Origin: Bacteroidales bacterium
GTDB taxonomy: Bacteria; Bacteroidota; Bacteroidia; Bacteroidales; GCA-2748055
DNA: 64,000 nt
Reading direction: 5' to 3'
Assembly (NCBI GenBank): GCA_023138875.1
Contig: JAGLOO010000030.1
Coordinates: 124,001-188,000 of the forward strand
Shown here in pieces: positions 16,055-24,410 of the stretch. The position numbers and the translations under genes are program-made. Position 1 is the first letter of the stretch, and every line of letters begins with the position of its first letter. A model generated the notes under the pieces. The model searched no databases, was not told where the DNA came from, and was given only the letters and a program-made list of their open reading frames with translations.

Positions 16055-19000
16055 CTATCTCACAATAATTACTCGATTCACGATCGAATGTTGATCGGCA
16101 TACATTCTGATGAAGTATGGTCCCGGGGGGTACATGGAAAGATCAATCTTGATTAAAGATAACCCAGACTCCGGGATCATATCTATCATTATCGAACCAC
16201 TAAACCCGACAACCTGAATGAGGTCAATATTGTTTTCTCCAACCTCAAGATAGAAAACTCCTTTTGACGGATTGGGATATACCGATAATCCAAACATCTC
16301 ATTTTCATCAACTACGGTTTCCCAGTCATTAATTTTAACAGCATATACGCACTCAACACCTGAACCATCCTGAGCGGTGGCTATAACAATAACTGTACCG
16401 GCCGCTACTGCGGTCAACAATCCGCCTTGGGTAATGGTGGCCTCCCCGGTCTCATTCTCCACCCTCCAGATCACATTTTGGTTAGTTGCATCGGTCGGTA
16501 ACACTTGTAGTATGAATTGCAAAGTCCCACCTATTCCAATCTCTGTCACTCCACTGGTAGTAGTTATATTGATGTCATTTACCAGTATGACAGAACTGGT
16601 GATGGTAAGTTCCATGGTATCCCTTTTGCCGGAACCATCCCAGGTTATTGCTATCACGTCAACAGTCCCTTCTGACTCACTTATGAAGAGCCCCTCCTGG
16701 GTTATTCTTGCATCTCCGGTTTTTTTGTTGACTCTCCAGATAACATCTTTATCCGTGGCATTATATGGTAAAGCTTCCACTGAAAACTGCAGGGAGTTTC
16801 CAATGGGCAACACTGTTATTCCTCCTTCTGAAATAACTGAAATCGAGCTCACCATTACTTTTTGATCCGAGATTGTGATTTGCATGCTGGTCGTTACCCC
16901 CGAACCATCCTGAGCAGTGGCCACAACAGTTACTGTACCCTCCGAAGTTGCCGTAAGCAATCCTCCCTGGGTAATCGTCGCTGAACCCGTCTGGTTAAGC
17001 ACACTCCAGATAATAGCCTTATTAGTCGCACCCGCAGGTAATACCTCCGCTGTGAACTGTAGCGTTCCACCCGTTAACATCTCTGTCACTTCTCCAACAG
17101 AGGTCACATTGATCGTTGTCACCGGCACCACCGGATCAGTGATCATGATCTGCAGGCTGCCCGTTACTCCGGAACCATCCTGAGCAGTGGCCACAACTGT
17201 TATGGTACCCTCCGAAGTTGCCGTAAGCAATCCTCCCTGGGTAATGGTAGCCTCTCCAGTCTGGTTAGTTACACTCCAGGTAATATCCTTATTGGTAGCA
17301 TTCAATGGTAAGACATTTGCTGAAAACTGTAGCGTACCGCCGGTTAACAACTCAGTCACTCCTCCAACCGAGGTCACATTGATTGTGGTCACTAGCACCA
17401 CCGGATCAGTGATTGAGATCTGCAGGCTGCCTGTTGCTCCCGATCCATCCTGAGCAGTGGCCACAACTGTTACTGTACCCTCCGAAGTTGCCGTAAGCAA
17501 TCCTCCCTGGGTAATCGTGCCCGAACCTGTTTGGTCCAACACACTCCAGATAATATCCTTGTTGGTGGCATTCGATGGTAAGACATTTGCTGAAAACTGT
17601 AGCGTACCGCCGGTTAACATCTCAGCCACTCCTCCAACCAAGGTCACATTGATCGTTGTCACTGGCATCACCGGATCAGTGATCATGATCTGCAGGCTGC
17701 CCGTTACTCCCGATCCATCCTGAGCAGTGGCCACAACTGTTACTGTACCCTCCGAAGTTGCCGTAAGCAATCCTCCCTGGGTAATGGTAGCCTCTCCTGT
17801 CTGGTTAGTTACACTCCAGGTAATATCCTTATTGGTAGCATTCGATGGTAAGACATTTGCTGAGAACTGAAGCATACCACCGGTTAACATCTCTGTTACT
17901 CCTCCAACCGAGGTCACATTGATCGTTGTCACTGGCACCACCAGATCAGTGATCGAGATCTGCAGGCTGCCTGTTGCTCCCGATCCATCCTGAGCAGTGG
18001 CCACAACTGTTACTGTACCCTCCGAAGTTGCCGTAAGCAATCCTCCCTGGGTAATGGTAGCCTCTCCTGTCTGGTTAGTTACACTCCAGGTAATATTCTT
18101 ATTTGTTGCATCTGACGGCAGGACTTCCGCTGTGAACTGAAGTGTTCCTCCCGTTAGTATTTCAGTTATTCCTCCAACAGAGGTCACATTAATTGTGGTC
18201 ACTGTCACCACCGGATCGGTGACAGTGATCTGCAGGCCGCCCGTTACCCCTGAACCATCCTGAGCAGTGGCCACAACTGTTACTGTACCTGGTGCCATTG
18301 CTGTTAACAATCCTCCCTGTGTAATCGTGCCCGAACCAGTTTGGTCCAACACACTCCAGGTAATATCCTTATTGGTAGCATTCGATAGTAAGACATCCGC
18401 TGAAAACTGTAGCGTACCGCCCGTTAATAGTTCAGTCACTCCTCCTTCCGAGGTCACATTGATTGTGGTCACAGGTACTTCAGGGTCGGTGATCATGATC
18501 TGCAGGTTGCCCGTTACCCCGGAACCATCCTGAGCAGTGGCCACAACTGTTACTGTACCCTCCGAAGTTGCCGTAAGCAATCCTCCCTGGGTAATCGTGC
18601 CCGAACCAGTTTGATTCGTTACACTCCATACTATCTCCTTGTTGGTAGCATCTGTAGGTAATACCTCTGCTGAAAACTGTAGCGTACCGCCGGTTAACAT
18701 CTCAGTCACTCCTCCAACAGAGGTCACATTGATCAGAGCCACCGGCACCACCGGATCGGTGATCGATATCTGCATGCTGCCCGTTACCCCTGAACCATCC
18801 TGAGCAGTGGCCACAACAGTTACTGTACCCTCCAAAGTTGCCGTAAACAATCCTCCCTGGGTAATCGTGCCCGAACCAGTTTGGTCCAACACACTCCATG
18901 CTATATCCTTATTAGTAGCATCTGTAGGTAATACTTCAGCTGAAAACTGAAGCATACTACCGGTTAACATCTCTGTCACTCCTCCAATAGAGGTCACATT

Positions 19001-20266
19001 GATCGTTGTCACTGGCACCACCGGATCAGTGATAGTGATCTGCAGGCTGCCCGATATCCCTGAACCATCCTGAGCAGTGGCCACAACAGTTACTGTGCCC
19101 TCCGAAGTTGCCGTAAGCAATCCTTCCTGGGTAATGGTAGCCTCTCCTGTCTGGTTAGTTACACTCCAGGTAATATCCTTATTTGTTGCATCTGACGGCA
19201 GGACTTCCGCTGTGAACTGAAGTGTTCCTCCCGTCAGTATTTCAGTCACACCGCCTGCTGAGCTTACATTGATCTGGCTGACCGGCACTGTCACCGGATT
19301 ACCATCCCACCCCGAGATACGAGCCAGAATCCACCACATTGCATAGGCCTTACGATTTGCTGTGATATGTTGCGTGTTATGGGCACCAAATGTAACACTG
19401 CCACCCGGCGATGTTTTATTCTCAAAATAATCTGTACCCAATGCATGTGAATTCTGCCAGTCAACATAGAAATTACCACCATATGAGACAGAATTTCCAT
19501 TGTCACCCGCATCCTCCCAGTAATTATCAACCATATCATGAGTATCAATGGAATAATAATCCAAACAAAAATATCCATTTGCATTGCAGTGATCATTGAT
19601 CAGGGCAGCCAGACTCTTTGGTCTCGATTCTCCAACATTGGCATTGACATTGGCATGACCTGTCATAAATATGAAATTGACAGACAATACCCTCTGTCCT
19701 GTTCCCGTGCCAATTTTGGATCCTCCGACACCATATTCACTGATCAATAAATCCATTCCCGGAAGATAATTGCCAGCAACATCATGCCCGGCAATATTAC
19801 ACCATGACCACATGATCACATTGACATTCGCATTCTCCGGTGCATCCAGATAATTCCTTGTGGTTTGAATAAATGCAGTTTCATCCCTGCTGAGATCAGA
19901 TGCATCTATGCCCACCGGAGCATAACTTGCTAAGGCATAATCTCTGAATTCCAATTTACTCCCCTGCGGGGTAGAGGACACCGCAAAAAGGATCTCATCC
20001 CCTGACTTATAATCCTGTAAACCGAAAACTCCACGGGATACATGCGTTCCATGAGAAGTATGCTGATAAGCAATGACCAGCTCAGTCTTGACAGTGTTGA
20101 TAAACTCCTCCGGGATACTCCTTAATACATCCTCATTCGCCACCTCATAATCAGCTATGTATTTCTGAGAATACATAGGGACAATTATGAGTGTCACAAT
20201 TAAGAATAGGTAGATCTTCCTTATAATTCTACGACCTGACACAACCATTAAGCTACATTTCAACAC
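16055..20266 (-). CDS. Giant secreted protein: HTSHG domain, 11 Big2 repeats, T9SS sorting domain
   Basis: A 1403-aa cell-surface protein. The N-terminal signal and membrane-like stretch (about 15-33) is followed by a 290-residue domain shared with the next two genes (about 35-325; AYQHTSHGTHVSRGVFGL, VIMWSWCNIAG, FIFMTGHANVNAN, TQHITANRKAYAMWWILARI). Eleven bacterial Ig-like Big2 repeats of about 90 residues follow; a typical unit starts INVTSVGGVTEMLTGGTLQF and contains ITWSVTNQTGEATITQGGLL and VTVVATAQDGSG. The last 80 residues are a T9SS type-A sorting domain (LSVYPNPSKGVFYLEV). The repeats probably form a stalk holding the N-terminal domain off the surface. The N-terminal domain has no function I can name with certainty; spaced Ser, Asp and His residues suggest an SGNH-like hydrolase. 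Confidence 0.85.
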   Translation of the reverse strand: MLKCSLMVVSGRRIIRKIYLFLIVTLIIVPMYSQKYIADYEVANEDVLRSIPEEFINTVKTELVIAYQHTSHGTHVSRGVFGLQDYKSGDEILFAVSSTPQGSKLEFRDYALASYAPVGIDASDLSRDETAFIQTTRNYLDAPENANVNVIMWSWCNIAGHDVAGNYLPGMDLLISEYGVGGSKIGTGTGQRVLSVNFIFMTGHANVNANVGESRPKSLAALINDHCNANGYFCLDYYSIDTHDMVDNYWEDAGDNGNSVSYGGNFYVDWQNSHALGTDYFENKTSPGGSVTFGAHNTQHITANRKAYAMWWILARISGWDGNPVTVPVSQINVSSAGGVTEILTGGTLQFTAEVLPSDATNKDITWSVTNQTGEATITQEGLLTATSEGTVTVVATAQDGSGISGSLQITITDPVVPVTTINVTSIGGVTEMLTGSMLQFSAEVLPTDATNKDIAWSVLDQTGSGTITQGGLFTATLEGTVTVVATAQDGSGVTGSMQISITDPVVPVALINVTSVGGVTEMLTGGTLQFSAEVLPTDATNKEIVWSVTNQTGSGTITQGGLLTATSEGTVTVVATAQDGSGVTGNLQIMITDPEVPVTTINVTSEGGVTELLTGGTLQFSADVLLSNATNKDITWSVLDQTGSGTITQGGLLTAMAPGTVTVVATAQDGSGVTGGLQITVTDPVVTVTTINVTSVGGITEILTGGTLQFTAEVLPSDATNKNITWSVTNQTGEATITQGGLLTATSEGTVTVVATAQDGSGATGSLQISITDLVVPVTTINVTSVGGVTEMLTGGMLQFSANVLPSNATNKDITWSVTNQTGEATITQGGLLTATSEGTVTVVATAQDGSGVTGSLQIMITDPVMPVTTINVTLVGGVAEMLTGGTLQFSANVLPSNATNKDIIWSVLDQTGSGTITQGGLLTATSEGTVTVVATAQDGSGATGSLQISITDPVVLVTTINVTSVGGVTELLTGGTLQFSANVLPLNATNKDITWSVTNQTGEATITQGGLLTATSEGTITVVATAQDGSGVTGSLQIMITDPVVPVTTINVTSVGEVTEMLTGGTLQFTAEVLPAGATNKAIIWSVLNQTGSATITQGGLLTATSEGTVTVVATAQDGSGVTTSMQITISDQKVMVSSISVISEGGITVLPIGNSLQFSVEALPYNATDKDVIWRVNKKTGDARITQEGLFISESEGTVDVIAITWDGSGKRDTMELTITSSVILVNDINITTTSGVTEIGIGGTLQFILQVLPTDATNQNVIWRVENETGEATITQGGLLTAVAAGTVIVIATAQDGSGVECVYAVKINDWETVVDENEMFGLSVYPNPSKGVFYLEVGENNIDLIQVVGFSGSIMIDMIPESGLSLIKIDLSMYPPGPYFIRMYADQHSIVNRVIIVR
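16327..19290 (-). repeat. Eleven tandem Big2-coding repeats of 270 bp
   Basis: The coding repeats are 270 bp each. A short marker (CATCCTGAGCAGTGGCCACA) recurs at exact 270-bp steps from about 16906 to about 19066, nine times. Units 2-9 are nearly identical at DNA level, while units 10 and 11 nearest the C-terminus are diverged. The exact phase and high identity indicate recent expansion or homogenisation. The antisense frames along this block are open only because of the repeat. Confidence 0.9.
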
Positions 20267-20292
20267 ACTATAGTTCTTTTCACTTTCTAAAA

Positions 20293-22029
20293 CTATGGTA
20301 GAATAATCACCCTTTTCTGGAGACTAATGCGGTCAACAATTATCATAAACACATACATCCCTGACGAGTAACCTGATAGATCAATTGAAATCAATTGTTC
20401 TCCGGTAGGAGGAATATAATTAAGAATCTCCGACCCAGTGATGCTATATACATTAATCTGGTCTATGATTAAATCCGGATCATTTATATGGAAAAACCCA
20501 AAACCAGGATTAGGATAGAGATTAAAATCTTTTAATTCAAGTTGTTCGAGGTTAGTACTGTTCCTAATTTGAATCGAAATACTTTCGGTGACTTCCGAAC
20601 CATCCTGCGCAGCGGCCACAACATTGACCGTACCCTCGGATACAGCCGTTAATAATCCATCCTGGCTAATGGTAGCCTCTCCTGTCTGGTTCGTTACACT
20701 CCAGGTAATATCCTTATTTTTTGCATCTGACGGCAGGACTTCCGCTGTGAGCTGAAGTGTTCCTCCCGTTAGTATTTCAGTCACGTCACCTGCTGAAGTG
20801 ACATTGATCTGGCTGACAAGCACTGTTGGATCGGTGATCGTAATCTGCATACTGCCAGTAACTCCCGAACCATCCTGGGCGGTGGCTACAACATTGACCG
20901 TACCCTCGGATACAGCCGTCAACAATCCGCCCTGGGTAATGGTAGCCTCTCCTGTCTGGTTCGTTACACTCCAGGTAATATCCTTATTTGTCGCATTGGC
21001 TGGTAATACCTCTTCTGTAAACTGTAAAGTGCCACCAGTGGCCATCTCCGTTGCACCTCCTGCTGAGCTTACATTGATCTGGCTAACGGGAGTGCTGGCT
21101 ATTTCTCCATTCCAACCAGCAATGCGTGCCAGGATCCACCACATGGCATATGCTTTTCTATTTGCTGTAATGTGCTGTGTATTATGAGCTCCAAAGGTAG
21201 CATCGCCACCCAGCGATGTTTTATTCTCAAAATAATCTGTACCCAATGCATGTGAATTCTGCCAATCTTCATAGAAATTACCACCATATGAGACAGAATT
21301 TCCATTGTCACCCGCATCCTCCCAGTAATTATCAACCATATCATGAGTATCAATGGAATAATAATCCAAACAAAAATATCCATTTGTATTGCAGTGATCA
21401 TTGATCAGGGCAGCCAGACTCTTTGGTCTCGATTCTCCAACATTGGCATTGACATTGGCATGACCTGTCATAAATATGAAAGTAACAGACACTTCCCTTT
21501 GTCCTTCACCAGTCCCAATCTTTGATCCGGCAACTCCATATTCACTGATCAATAAATCCATTCCCGGCAGATAATTGCCAGCAACATCATGCCCGGCAAT
21601 ATTACACCAGGACCACATGATCACATTGACATCCGCATTCTCCGGTGCATCCAGGTAATTCCTTGTGGTTTGAATAAATGCTGTCTCGTTCCTGCTAAGA
21701 TCTGAACCATCAATGCCTGCCGGAGCATAACTTCCCAGAGCATAATCTCTGAATTCCAATTTACCACCCTGCGGGGTAGAGGAGACTGCAAAAAGGATCT
21801 CATCCCCTGACTTATAATCCTGCAAACCGAAAACTCCACGGGATACATGCGTCCCATGAGAAGTATGCTGATAAGCAATGACCAGCTCAGTCCTGGCTGT
21901 GTTGATAAACTCCTCCGGGATACTCCTTAATACATCCTCATTCGCCACCTCATGATCAGCTATGTATTTCTGGGAATATGAAGGAAGTGATGCCAGGATC
22001 ATCAGTAAACATACTATGAGTTGTTTCAT
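20293..22029 (-). CDS. Secreted paralogue: HTSHG domain, 2 Big2 repeats, T9SS sorting domain
   Basis: A 578-aa secreted protein. The signal peptide is MKQLIVCLLMILASLPSYSQ. The shared N-terminal domain (about 21-307) is nearly identical to its two neighbours, including YQHTSHGTHVSRG (HTSHG at 55-59), MWSWCNIAGHDVAG, FMTGHANVNAN and TQHITANRKAYAMWW. Two Big2 repeats follow (about 312-490; INVSSAGGATEMATGG and INVTSAGDVTEILTGG). The C-terminal T9SS sorting domain contains LKDFNLYPNPGFGFFHI and SSGMYVFMI. It lies 26 bp upstream of the 1403-aa gene and differs from it mainly in repeat number. Confidence 0.85.
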   Translation of the reverse strand: MKQLIVCLLMILASLPSYSQKYIADHEVANEDVLRSIPEEFINTARTELVIAYQHTSHGTHVSRGVFGLQDYKSGDEILFAVSSTPQGGKLEFRDYALGSYAPAGIDGSDLSRNETAFIQTTRNYLDAPENADVNVIMWSWCNIAGHDVAGNYLPGMDLLISEYGVAGSKIGTGEGQREVSVTFIFMTGHANVNANVGESRPKSLAALINDHCNTNGYFCLDYYSIDTHDMVDNYWEDAGDNGNSVSYGGNFYEDWQNSHALGTDYFENKTSLGGDATFGAHNTQHITANRKAYAMWWILARIAGWNGEIASTPVSQINVSSAGGATEMATGGTLQFTEEVLPANATNKDITWSVTNQTGEATITQGGLLTAVSEGTVNVVATAQDGSGVTGSMQITITDPTVLVSQINVTSAGDVTEILTGGTLQLTAEVLPSDAKNKDITWSVTNQTGEATISQDGLLTAVSEGTVNVVAAAQDGSEVTESISIQIRNSTNLEQLELKDFNLYPNPGFGFFHINDPDLIIDQINVYSITGSEILNYIPPTGEQLISIDLSGYSSGMYVFMIIVDRISLQKRVIILP

Positions 22030-22091
22030 TGTTGGTAGGTTTTTAGCGGATAGGAATTTAACTTATCAATGCCGAATTACCGGGATACTTC

Positions 22092-23291
22092 TTAGTTAGT
22101 TAAGACAACCGTACTATGTTCATCAGTTTTAGAATCCGTTATCAATCTTAATCCATATACACCGGGAGTATGATCCGATAAATCGATGCTTAGAAGAGAT
22201 TCATTCATAACAGGAACAACACTTACTATTTCATTACCGTCGATCCTATATATTTGAATAGCATTAACTTTAAAATCAACGTTCTCTATATACAGCATTC
22301 CGTTAGTAGGATTAGGAAAAACCACCACATGTTTGGCATCTGTCACATTCCTGGCTGAAACAATATTCCCATTCCAACCAGCAATACGTGCCAGGATCCA
22401 CCACATGGCATAGGCCTTACGATTTGCTGTAATGTGCTGTGTGTTATGGGCTCCAAAGGTAGCATCGCCACCCGGAGATGTTTTATTCTCAAAATAATCT
22501 GTACCCAATGCATGTGAATTCTGCCAATCTTCATAGAAATTACCTCCGTATGCGCTGGAGTTTCCATTGTCACCCGCATCCTCCCAGTAATTACCGTCCA
22601 TGTCATGGGTGTCTATCGAATAGTAGTCCAAACAAAAATACCCTTGTGTGTTGCAATGGTCATTGATCAATGCAGCATGACTCTTTGGTTTCAATTCTCC
22701 AACATTGGCATTGACATTGGCATGACCTGTCATAAATATGAAAGTAACAGACACTTCCCTTTGTCCTTCACCTGTCCCAATCTTTGATCCGGCAACTCCA
22801 TATTCACTGATCAATAAATCCATTCCCGGCAGATAATTGCCAGCAACATCATGCCCGGCAATATTACACCATGACCACATGATCACATTGACATCCGCAT
22901 TTTCCGGAGCATCCAGGTAATTCCTTGTGGTTTGAATAAATGCTGTCTCGTTCCTGCTAAGATCTGAACCATCAATGCCTGCCGGAGCATAACTTGACAG
23001 GGCATAATCTCTAAAATCCAGTTTACCTGCCTGTTGCGAAGTGGAGACCGAAAAAAGAACATCGTCTCCAGATTCAAAATCAGGTAGTCCAAATACGCCG
23101 CGAGATACATGGGTTCCGTGAGAAGTATGCTGATAAGCAACATGAAGTTCGGTCCGTGCTTTATCAATAAATTCCTTAGGAATACTCCTCAAAACCTCCT
23201 CCTTGGCAACTTCATTATCGGCAATGTATTTCTGCGCCACCAGAGGGGTTATCAACATCGCCATACCTGTGATCAAACAAATCCTTTTCAT
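22092..23291 (-). CDS. Secreted paralogue: HTSHG domain and T9SS sorting domain, no Big2 repeat
   Basis: A 399-aa protein, the minimal member of the tandem family. A signal peptide (about 1-20, ending PLVAQ) precedes the same 290-residue domain: HTSHG at 55-59, MWSWCNIAG around 138-146, TGHANVNAN at 188-196, IDTHD around 226-230 and QHITANRKA at 285-293. It then passes straight into the T9SS sorting domain (HVVVFPNPTNGMLYIENVDF). The absence of Ig repeats shows that the N-terminal domain is the functional core. It is the first gene of the three on the minus strand and may be the ancestral copy. Confidence 0.85.
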   Translation of the reverse strand: MKRICLITGMAMLITPLVAQKYIADNEVAKEEVLRSIPKEFIDKARTELHVAYQHTSHGTHVSRGVFGLPDFESGDDVLFSVSTSQQAGKLDFRDYALSSYAPAGIDGSDLSRNETAFIQTTRNYLDAPENADVNVIMWSWCNIAGHDVAGNYLPGMDLLISEYGVAGSKIGTGEGQREVSVTFIFMTGHANVNANVGELKPKSHAALINDHCNTQGYFCLDYYSIDTHDMDGNYWEDAGDNGNSSAYGGNFYEDWQNSHALGTDYFENKTSPGGDATFGAHNTQHITANRKAYAMWWILARIAGWNGNIVSARNVTDAKHVVVFPNPTNGMLYIENVDFKVNAIQIYRIDGNEIVSVVPVMNESLLSIDLSDHTPGVYGLRLITDSKTDEHSTVVLTN

Positions 23292-23444: not shown

Positions 23445-24410
23445 CTAGTAAATCATGCCATTCATCAAAAAATCAGATACATACTCTTTCACACCTACCT
23501 CCAATGAAGTAAATTCCTTCCCATATCCCGCATCTCGCAATTTTCCCATCTTTGCTTCAGTGAAGTACTGGTAACGCTCACGGATGTCCTCCGGGGTGTC
23601 AATAAAAGAGATTGAGGGCTCCTTCCCCATGGCCTGAAAGGTGCAGGTAACCAGGTCGAGGAATGTGGAGGCCCGACCGGTACCCAGGTTATACAATCCG
23701 CTTGCAGGCCGGTTTTCCATCAGGTAGATGATGACATCCACCACATCTTTCACATATATAAAGTCCCGCGCCTGTTCCCCATCCCTGAAATCGGGATGAT
23801 GGGACCGGAACAGCTTCATTCCCCCTGTATCACGGATCTGGTTAAAGGCATGAAATACCACCGAAGCCATCCTTCCTTTATGGTATTCATTGGGACCGTA
23901 CACATTGAAGAATTTCAGACCAGCCCAGAAAAAGGGTTTTCGATCCAGGGAAAGAACCCAACGGTCGAATTCATTCTTGCTGCGCCCGTATGGATTAAGG
24001 GGTTCCAAGCTGGAAACCAACTCATGTGAATCGCTGTACCCCTGTTCACCAATTCCGTAGGTTGCCGCTGAACTGGCATAGATAACGGGCAACCCGAATT
24101 CAATGCTCAGATTGAAGACCTCTTTGGAGTAATCCACATTCAGTTCCTGAAAAACCTCCCAGGATAATTCGGTGGTATCGGTCCGCGCCCCCAGGTGAAG
24201 GATCACCTGGACAAAGCGGTGGTTCTCCCGCACCCAATGAGGAAATTCCCTGCGGTCCACCTTCGTTGTAAACTGCTTGCCCTCATAATTCCTCACCCGG
24301 TCGGGCCGGCTGAAATCATCCACCAGGACCACATCTCGATAGCGGGCCCGGTTCAATCCGGTTACTAGGTTGCTTCCAATAAATCCCGCCGCTCCGGTTA
24401 CTACGATCAT
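23445..24410 (-). CDS. hldD: ADP-L-glycero-D-manno-heptose 6-epimerase
   Basis: A 321-aa SDR epimerase. The NAD(P)-binding glycine motif is VVTGAAGFIGSNLV. Heptose-epimerase signatures are FSRPDRVRN, ILHLGARTDTTE, ASSAATYG, NPYGRSKNEFDRWVLS (the YxxxK catalytic pair) and FNVYGPNEYHKGRMASVVFH. It makes ADP-L-glycero-D-manno-heptose for the inner core of lipopolysaccharide. It is divergent from folE across a 105-bp gap. Confidence 0.93.
   Translation of the reverse strand: MIVVTGAAGFIGSNLVTGLNRARYRDVVLVDDFSRPDRVRNYEGKQFTTKVDRREFPHWVRENHRFVQVILHLGARTDTTELSWEVFQELNVDYSKEVFNLSIEFGLPVIYASSAATYGIGEQGYSDSHELVSSLEPLNPYGRSKNEFDRWVLSLDRKPFFWAGLKFFNVYGPNEYHKGRMASVVFHAFNQIRDTGGMKLFRSHHPDFRDGEQARDFIYVKDVVDVIIYLMENRPASGLYNLGTGRASTFLDLVTCTFQAMGKEPSISFIDTPEDIRERYQYFTEAKMGKLRDAGYGKEFTSLEVGVKEYVSDFLMNGMIY

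Follow-up and report, generated by a model that had tools for sequence, protein, structure and literature searches.

Why does a single Bacteroidales genome carry, side by side, three genes for secreted proteins that share nearly the same head domain, while the stalk behind that head ranges from nothing to eleven repeats? The genes lie at positions 16055-23291 of the window, by which we mean the whole stretch of 64,000 nucleotides that was analyzed (GenBank assembly GCA_023138875.1, contig JAGLOO010000030.1, forward-strand positions 124,001 to 188,000). They are three minus-strand open reading frames (ORFs) arranged head to tail, with intergenic gaps of 62 bp between genes 3 and 2 and 26 bp between genes 2 and 1. 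Gene 3 (22092-23291, 399 amino acids) encodes the head and a type IX secretion system (T9SS) sorting tail with no stalk between them, gene 2 (20293-22029, 578 amino acids) inserts two units of Big_2, a known Ig-like domain family, and gene 1 (16055-20266, 1403 amino acids, GTG start) inserts eleven. We label them A0, A2, and A11, for the head type and the number of Big_2 units. The first-pass annotation had described this arrangement and read it as a family that varies reach from the cell surface rather than activity; the ORF map and Pfam agree on the arrangement, with 0, 2, and 11 Big_2 stretches in genes 3, 2, and 1 and a Por_Secre_tail match above the curated cut-off in each. Our answer to the question, which we hold with moderate confidence, is that this is a modular surface-display locus in which SGNH-fold heads are carried on Big_2 stalks of variable length.

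The heads occupy 22353-23234 in gene 3 (294 amino acids), 21091-21972 in gene 2, and, by sequence alignment, 19286-20167 in gene 1. They are indeed nearly constant, at 83-89% amino acid identity over 294 residues (89% between genes 3 and 2, 83% between genes 3 and 1), and the ratio of nonsynonymous to synonymous divergence (dN/dS) that had been proposed as a check is 0.10-0.14, pointing to purifying selection on the head. The NG86 estimates are dS 0.35 and dN 0.050 for A11/A2 (ratio 0.14), 0.56 and 0.062 for A2/A0 (0.11), and 0.88 and 0.089 for A11/A0 (0.10). These whole-domain averages are nevertheless misleading because silent divergence among the heads comes in blocks, switching between pS values of about 0 and 0.94. 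Over domain nucleotides 1-234 (21739-21972), the head of gene 2 is like that of gene 1 (pS ~0.06-0.20, versus 0.76-0.94 to gene 3), over nucleotides 235-540 (21433-21738) it is like gene 3 (pS ~0.05-0.16), over nucleotides 541-702 (21271-21432) it is again like gene 1 (pS ~0), and past nucleotide 702 it shows a mixed resemblance to both. Against 20,000 column shuffles, the longest concordant run of variable sites had P<=5e-5 for A11/A2 at all sites and 4e-4 at silent sites, and P<=4.5e-4 and 3.8e-3, respectively, for A2/A0. In its head, gene 2 is a mosaic with some pieces like gene 1 and others like gene 3, and gene conversion accounts for at least part of the likeness among the heads. Because conversion contributes, the near-identity of the heads is by itself no proof of either recent duplication or constraint.

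The first, unconverted block bears on the age of the copies: in it, A2 and A11 match the orthologue in G010, a congeneric species, at 81 and 79%, versus 76 and 72% to A0. That they are nearer to the orthologue than to their own neighbor suggests that the gene copies predate the split from G010 and were partly homogenized afterwards. The tandem pairs of two further species, G002 and G008, have no mosaic blocks of the type seen in the window.

In both stalked genes the Big_2 units are exactly 90 amino acids (270 bp) long, and of the 14 units found in the genome, 13 lie within genes 1 and 2. Gene 2 carries its two units, delimited by Pfam and unit alignment, at 20548-21087. In gene 1, units 1-9 on the head side (16853-19282) share 76-94% DNA identity with one another, the mark of a young amplification, whereas units 10 and 11 on the tail side (16313-16852) are old, with 50-64% identity to all others. 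A tree built from the units of five species joins units 1-9 of A11 to those of A2 and places unit 10, with supports of 0.98 and 0.90, next to the last stalk units sampled from G002 and G003. From the identities and the tree together, the A11 stalk appears to keep two old units at its base and to have grown recently on the side of the head. Stalk units in the other species are old, with a mean identity of 45-49% inside one protein. Units 1-9 of A11 form an array of highly similar folded domains separating head from anchor, which is a feature of Periscope proteins. The gene 1 Big_2 units also exceed the cut-off of NF041112, an NCBIfam model of a CsgH-like curli chaperone (37.4 versus 35 bits), most likely a false positive from the Ig-like repeat.

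The same site in related genomes was recognized by its two landmark genes, one for an NAD-dependent epimerase-like protein (23445-24410, minus strand) and one for an HD-domain protein (PF01966; 15490-16050, minus strand, 4 bp from gene 1). There the heads vary as well. A second SGNH-like head, which we call B, is distantly related to A (hhalign probability 98.4, E 5e-15) and has an invariant DxDH-type motif, DGDH in most members. The orthologous site holds a B0-B7 pair in G002, B0 (cut by a contig end) and B5 in G008, A0 followed by a B gene with at least three units (cut) in G010, B6 alone in G003, and A0 (cut) in G011. It is empty in G009, where ~15 bp separate the landmark coding regions, and less than 0.4 kb separates the landmark genes in G020 and G019; in some other genera an unrelated membrane protein occupies it. 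A stalkless gene followed by a stalked one thus recurs in G002, G008, and G010 with differing repeat numbers, and the comparison of repeat number (11, 7, 6, 5, and at least 3 units) is one between different species of the genus. In G016, a further species of the genus, the end of a gene with Big_2 and a T9SS tail lies beyond the epimerase gene, on its other side and in the same direction (L179:3-461).

In G010 an A head sits on a B-type tail. Its A0 head falls into the A clade with the window genes (support 100/99), while its tail is 59 and 49% identical to the B0 tails of G008 and G002 but 16% identical to the tail of the window A0, and no DNA word longer than 15 bp is common to this gene and any B gene. 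Likewise, the tail of A11 is 36-45% identical to those of B5, B7, and B6 despite the differing head types. This likeness of tails across head types indicates that A and B heads have been exchanged between species, against stalks and tails, at one orthologous site.

What reaches the cell surface can be predicted from the ends of the proteins. Gene 3 begins with a likely signal peptide, read by eye (residues 1-19, MKRICLITGMAMLITPLVA, 23235-23291), and the type A sorting tails at 22122-22322 in gene 3, 20302-20520 in gene 2, and 16064-16282 in gene 1 match PF18962 with 35.2, 33.5, and 34.2 bits against a cut-off of 27. TIGR04183 gives 28.5 and 29.9 bits for genes 3 and 2 against a cut-off of 23, with gene 1 slightly short at 22.6. 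The proteins therefore have the features of T9SS type A substrates, signal peptides (by eye) and a C-terminal sorting domain above the curated cut-off. A machinery search aimed at SprA found it in the genome with 2653 bits, and 83 T9SS tails exceed the cut-off genome-wide; tails, SprA, and the wider complement of tails all point to a surface location via T9SS for the three proteins. The first-pass annotation had spoken of the same kind of sorting domain in all three, which is right as to family, but the tails are just 29-38% identical to one another, unlike the near-constant head.

The head itself belongs to no Pfam, NCBIfam, or PHROGs family, with chance-level matches only (such as KWL1 and Imm47; E 0.0085 or worse, far under the cut-offs). 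PDB sequence searches with the single protein and with a profile found no relative of the A head, and likewise none of the B head; plasmid records contained no relative. An AlphaFold2 model of the gene 3 head, built on 64 aligned homologues that span several phyla, has a mean pLDDT of 95.9 and a pTM of 0.93. Foldseek taken alone is weak (best E 0.0055 against PDB and 0.0045 against viral proteins), with SGNH/GDSL acylhydrolases as the first-ranked names and, in the viral fold library, SGNH/GDSL names and nothing further. Structural realignment of its candidates gave Z scores of 8.0-10.5 over 157-184 residues, the top one being 10.5 over 162 residues with a root-mean-square deviation of 3.4, and nearly all of the realigned structures are SGNH/GDSL esterases and O-acetyltransferases (OatA, PatB). 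On this model the head is predicted to have an SGNH-hydrolase fold, in an uncatalogued family. A full-length model of gene 2 from three sequences was useless for the head (pLDDT ~20-30) and fair for the stalk, and its head was left unused.

Conservation singles out a candidate active site. Ser38, in the motif HTSHG, is invariant in 64/64 homologues and lies at the start of a helix (38-52) straight after a strand (31-35), the Block I position. His36, His39, Gly40, Asp76, Trp120, Trp122, Cys123, Thr169, His171, Asp203, Asp219, and Lys273 are also invariant, and the alignment has 28 invariant columns in all, over sequences from Bacteroidota, Desulfobulbales, Spirochaetota, and Lokiarchaeota. All three heads in the window have the family-invariant residues.

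Relatives in these four groups came from the search of other genomes that the first-pass annotation had proposed. In its own phylum the head is rare, with an A head in 4/392 drawn genomes. A-type relatives are mostly single-domain secreted proteins, and in those of Bacteroidales the signal is often followed by a lipoprotein-like Cys; a tail after the head also occurs in Carboxylicivirga and Labilibacter. The source genome has a fourth head gene on another contig (C56; L009:6611-7585), of 324 amino acids, with a lipoprotein-like signal (LMSCEKN) and without stalk or T9SS tail. It falls into another clade of the gene tree, and we rejected the idea that it is a pseudogene: the stop codons in question lie beyond the end of its reading frame, and the gene is intact. 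The relatives in Lokiarchaeota metagenome-assembled genomes (L104-L108, L112, L115) are 35-40% identical, form a single clade, and keep the HTSHG, WSWC, and TGH motifs. In G011 (L014:256-2367, L062) a head is fused to an N-terminal region of ~370 amino acids that looks transglutaminase-like by eye (HCGHF...GHHGINEIW) and has no Pfam match. In Desulfobulbales (L059, L063, L093, L111, L113) the head is followed by a linker of 20-40 residues rich in Pro, Gly, and Ser and then by a short hydrophobic C-terminus (..APLLLHN, ..TTLLLNN, ..NSFLLKN), which may be a sorting signal not yet described.

The B-type genes of other genera have settings of their own. In two genera, a B-type gene lies near a gene for an MBOAT O-acyltransferase and one for a Pel9A-like beta-helix T9SS protein (L156:8394-12989, L188:207-4957), a neighborhood that is possibly a glycan acetylation cluster. 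In stalked B-type genes of other genera (L188:8984-11254, L156:1675-5761), an fn3-like stretch replaces the Big_2 units, and their C-terminal region, ..NNVDSEKLDYFQE, is common to neighboring tandem proteins and is perhaps another type of tail. Another SGNH-like family (FLHHSTG ... DSHPN), without a Pfam match, adjoins B- or A-type genes in three genomes (L156:7492-8397, L188:7996-8889, L038).

If the window holds a display locus of the kind we favor, its proteins would be exported by Sec and then carried across the outer membrane by T9SS through the C-terminal tail, so that the SGNH-fold head is presented at the far end, on the cell surface, with zero, two, or eleven Big_2 units setting its distance from the membrane. 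The head would most likely be a carbohydrate O-acyl esterase or acyltransferase, with a glycan at or beyond the cell surface as substrate and Ser38 as nucleophile. Gene conversion would keep the heads of the source genome alike, unequal exchange of 270-bp units would lengthen the stalk on the head side of the two old base units, and A and B heads would be swapped between species against orthologous stalks and tails. Enzymatic activity and substrate are the weakest step of this scheme, one that we would back by a narrow measure; the fold suggests a role in O-acyl glycan editing, and the MBOAT and beta-helix neighborhoods of B-type genes suggest it weakly. More tentatively, and as a possibility that we rate below even, the locus may serve combinatorial display, in which one genome presents one enzyme at a set of fixed heights above its cell surface and may benefit from having these lengths at once, conversion holding head specificity alike while stalks, and between species heads, behave as cassettes. 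The proposal that the family varies reach rather than activity stands in part: there is one head type in the window, under purifying selection and with its invariant residues kept, on stalks of 0-11 units, and the stalkless/stalked order recurs in three species; but either an A or a B head can fill the same slot, and an A head can stand on a B-type tail. Comparison across species thus partly supports the proposal, in that stalk length varies most, but the heads vary too, on different time scales.

Several observations weigh against the display reading. By the block definitions of PMC9487903, and in the alignment of 64 homologues, the Block III Asn (GxND) is absent, with WSWC at its position followed by a variable N, S, or D; the Block II Gly is not evident, Asp76 closing strand 2; and the Block V DxxH is missing from A heads, which have GAHNTQHIT without the Asp and with the His in 60/64 rows. 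Given these noncanonical blocks, the head may be something other than an esterase. Atypical SGNH families, which use a Ser-His dyad or different oxyanion residues, do exist (PMC9487903), and because some of them too lack these features, the deviating Blocks II and III lower the chance of membership in canonical SGNH families only. With Ser38 kept, canonical motifs missing, and atypical families known, we regard the modeled head as an SGNH-fold domain that is probably but not certainly catalytic. By eye, the neighbors of single-domain relatives are mixed housekeeping genes with no conserved partner or pathway, and the neighbors in the window give no hint of a glycan. The stalked gene of G003 has no stalkless partner, the variation in repeat number could be neutral, and the expression and surface location of the proteins are presumed. 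A scan for promoters and terminators was uninformative, with counts close to shuffled expectation.

The noncanonical motifs leave room for a head that is a noncatalytic adhesin or glycan-binding module, the proteins then being fibrillar adhesins of varying length, and fibrillar adhesins and Periscope proteins are built in this way, as a head on an Ig-like stalk (PMC8201768, PMC9210967). We find this doubtful. The 28 invariant columns span several phyla and include His/Ser/His, Asp, and Cys at the motif positions, which is active-site-like rather than the pattern of a fast-evolving adhesin face, and the majority of relatives are secreted or lipoprotein-like proteins of one domain that lack a stalk. 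An ordinary recent tandem triplication, with heads alike through youth and stalk length drifting neutrally, would fit the single clade formed by the three heads (99/95 in the gene tree) and the readiness with which such repeats change number. It sits badly with unconverted blocks near saturation (pS 0.76-0.94) beside blocks that are nearly identical, and with stalkless and stalked pairs that recur in other species; for the heads these patterns largely refute it, and overall we consider it unlikely.

A metagenome-type assembly might also have created the locus as an artefact or chimera, the outcome that the first-pass annotation had named as its own undoing should long reads reveal it. Array units share identical DNA of up to ~120 bp, and two related contigs (L116, L117) end within the head domain. 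Yet exact repeats in the region all stay below 127 bp and the copies differ within their shared tracts; with tracts that are imperfectly identical and exact repeats this short, chimerism is a poor explanation. The locus lies at ~140-147 kb on a contig of 216,685 bp, distant from the contig ends, in a genome that is 99.6% complete, and syntenic tandem genes occur in independent assemblies. Judged on copy differences, repeat lengths, and these assemblies, an artefact is very improbable; the unit number of 11 is the least certain datum.

Each of the processes proposed for the display locus is known elsewhere, and what is striking is a conversion mosaic joined to recurrent head-swapping at a length-varying locus, a combination that we did not find, for a single T9SS locus with heads of an uncatalogued SGNH-fold family, in the open-licence literature searched. 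If the reading is true, the locus offers a natural experiment: a surface enzyme held near constant by conversion stands at varying distances from the outer membrane, so that what Gram-negative bacteria use stalk length for becomes directly testable. The locus also adds an uncatalogued family of predicted SGNH fold across Bacteroidota, Desulfobulbales, Spirochaetota, and Lokiarchaeota, and documents head, stalk, and tail modularity of T9SS proteins at a single orthologous site.

Among known systems, SGNH/GDSL proteins with atypical motifs (CE2 Ser-His dyad enzymes, SASA, OatA, and PatB) resemble the head in predicted fold and in the position of the invariant Ser (PMC9487903); the head differs in having no sequence-level match to Pfam, NCBIfam, or PDB families and in its deviating Block II, III, and V motifs. 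The RgpA and RgpB gingipains of Porphyromonas gingivalis, with the HagA repeats, are likewise Bacteroidales T9SS surface proteins in which near-identical catalytic domains occur with and without an extension, and the number of hagA direct repeats varies while recombination shuffles domains (PMC5266723). The gingipain head is a C25 protease and its extension consists of adhesin domains, in contrast to the SGNH-fold head and Big_2 units here; the window heads have no Peptidase C25 match in Pfam, so that the layout is gingipain-like but the proteins are not members, and the passages of PMC5266723 consulted describe, for gingipains, no exchange of heads on a conserved tail at an orthologous site. 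Ig-like units of Bacteroidota glycan proteins (BACON, DUF1735) have been proposed to space a catalytic or binding module from the membrane (PMC11216935), but those are N-terminal spacers of lipoproteins, whereas the stalk here is C-terminal, multi-unit, and placed before a T9SS tail. In Periscope proteins (SasG, Rib, Sgo_0707, and CdrA), arrays of folded domains set distance (PMC8201768), and in the known examples it is a single gene that varies from strain to strain. The window instead has tandem paralogues of several lengths together in one genome, with an enzyme-like head and in a T9SS setting.

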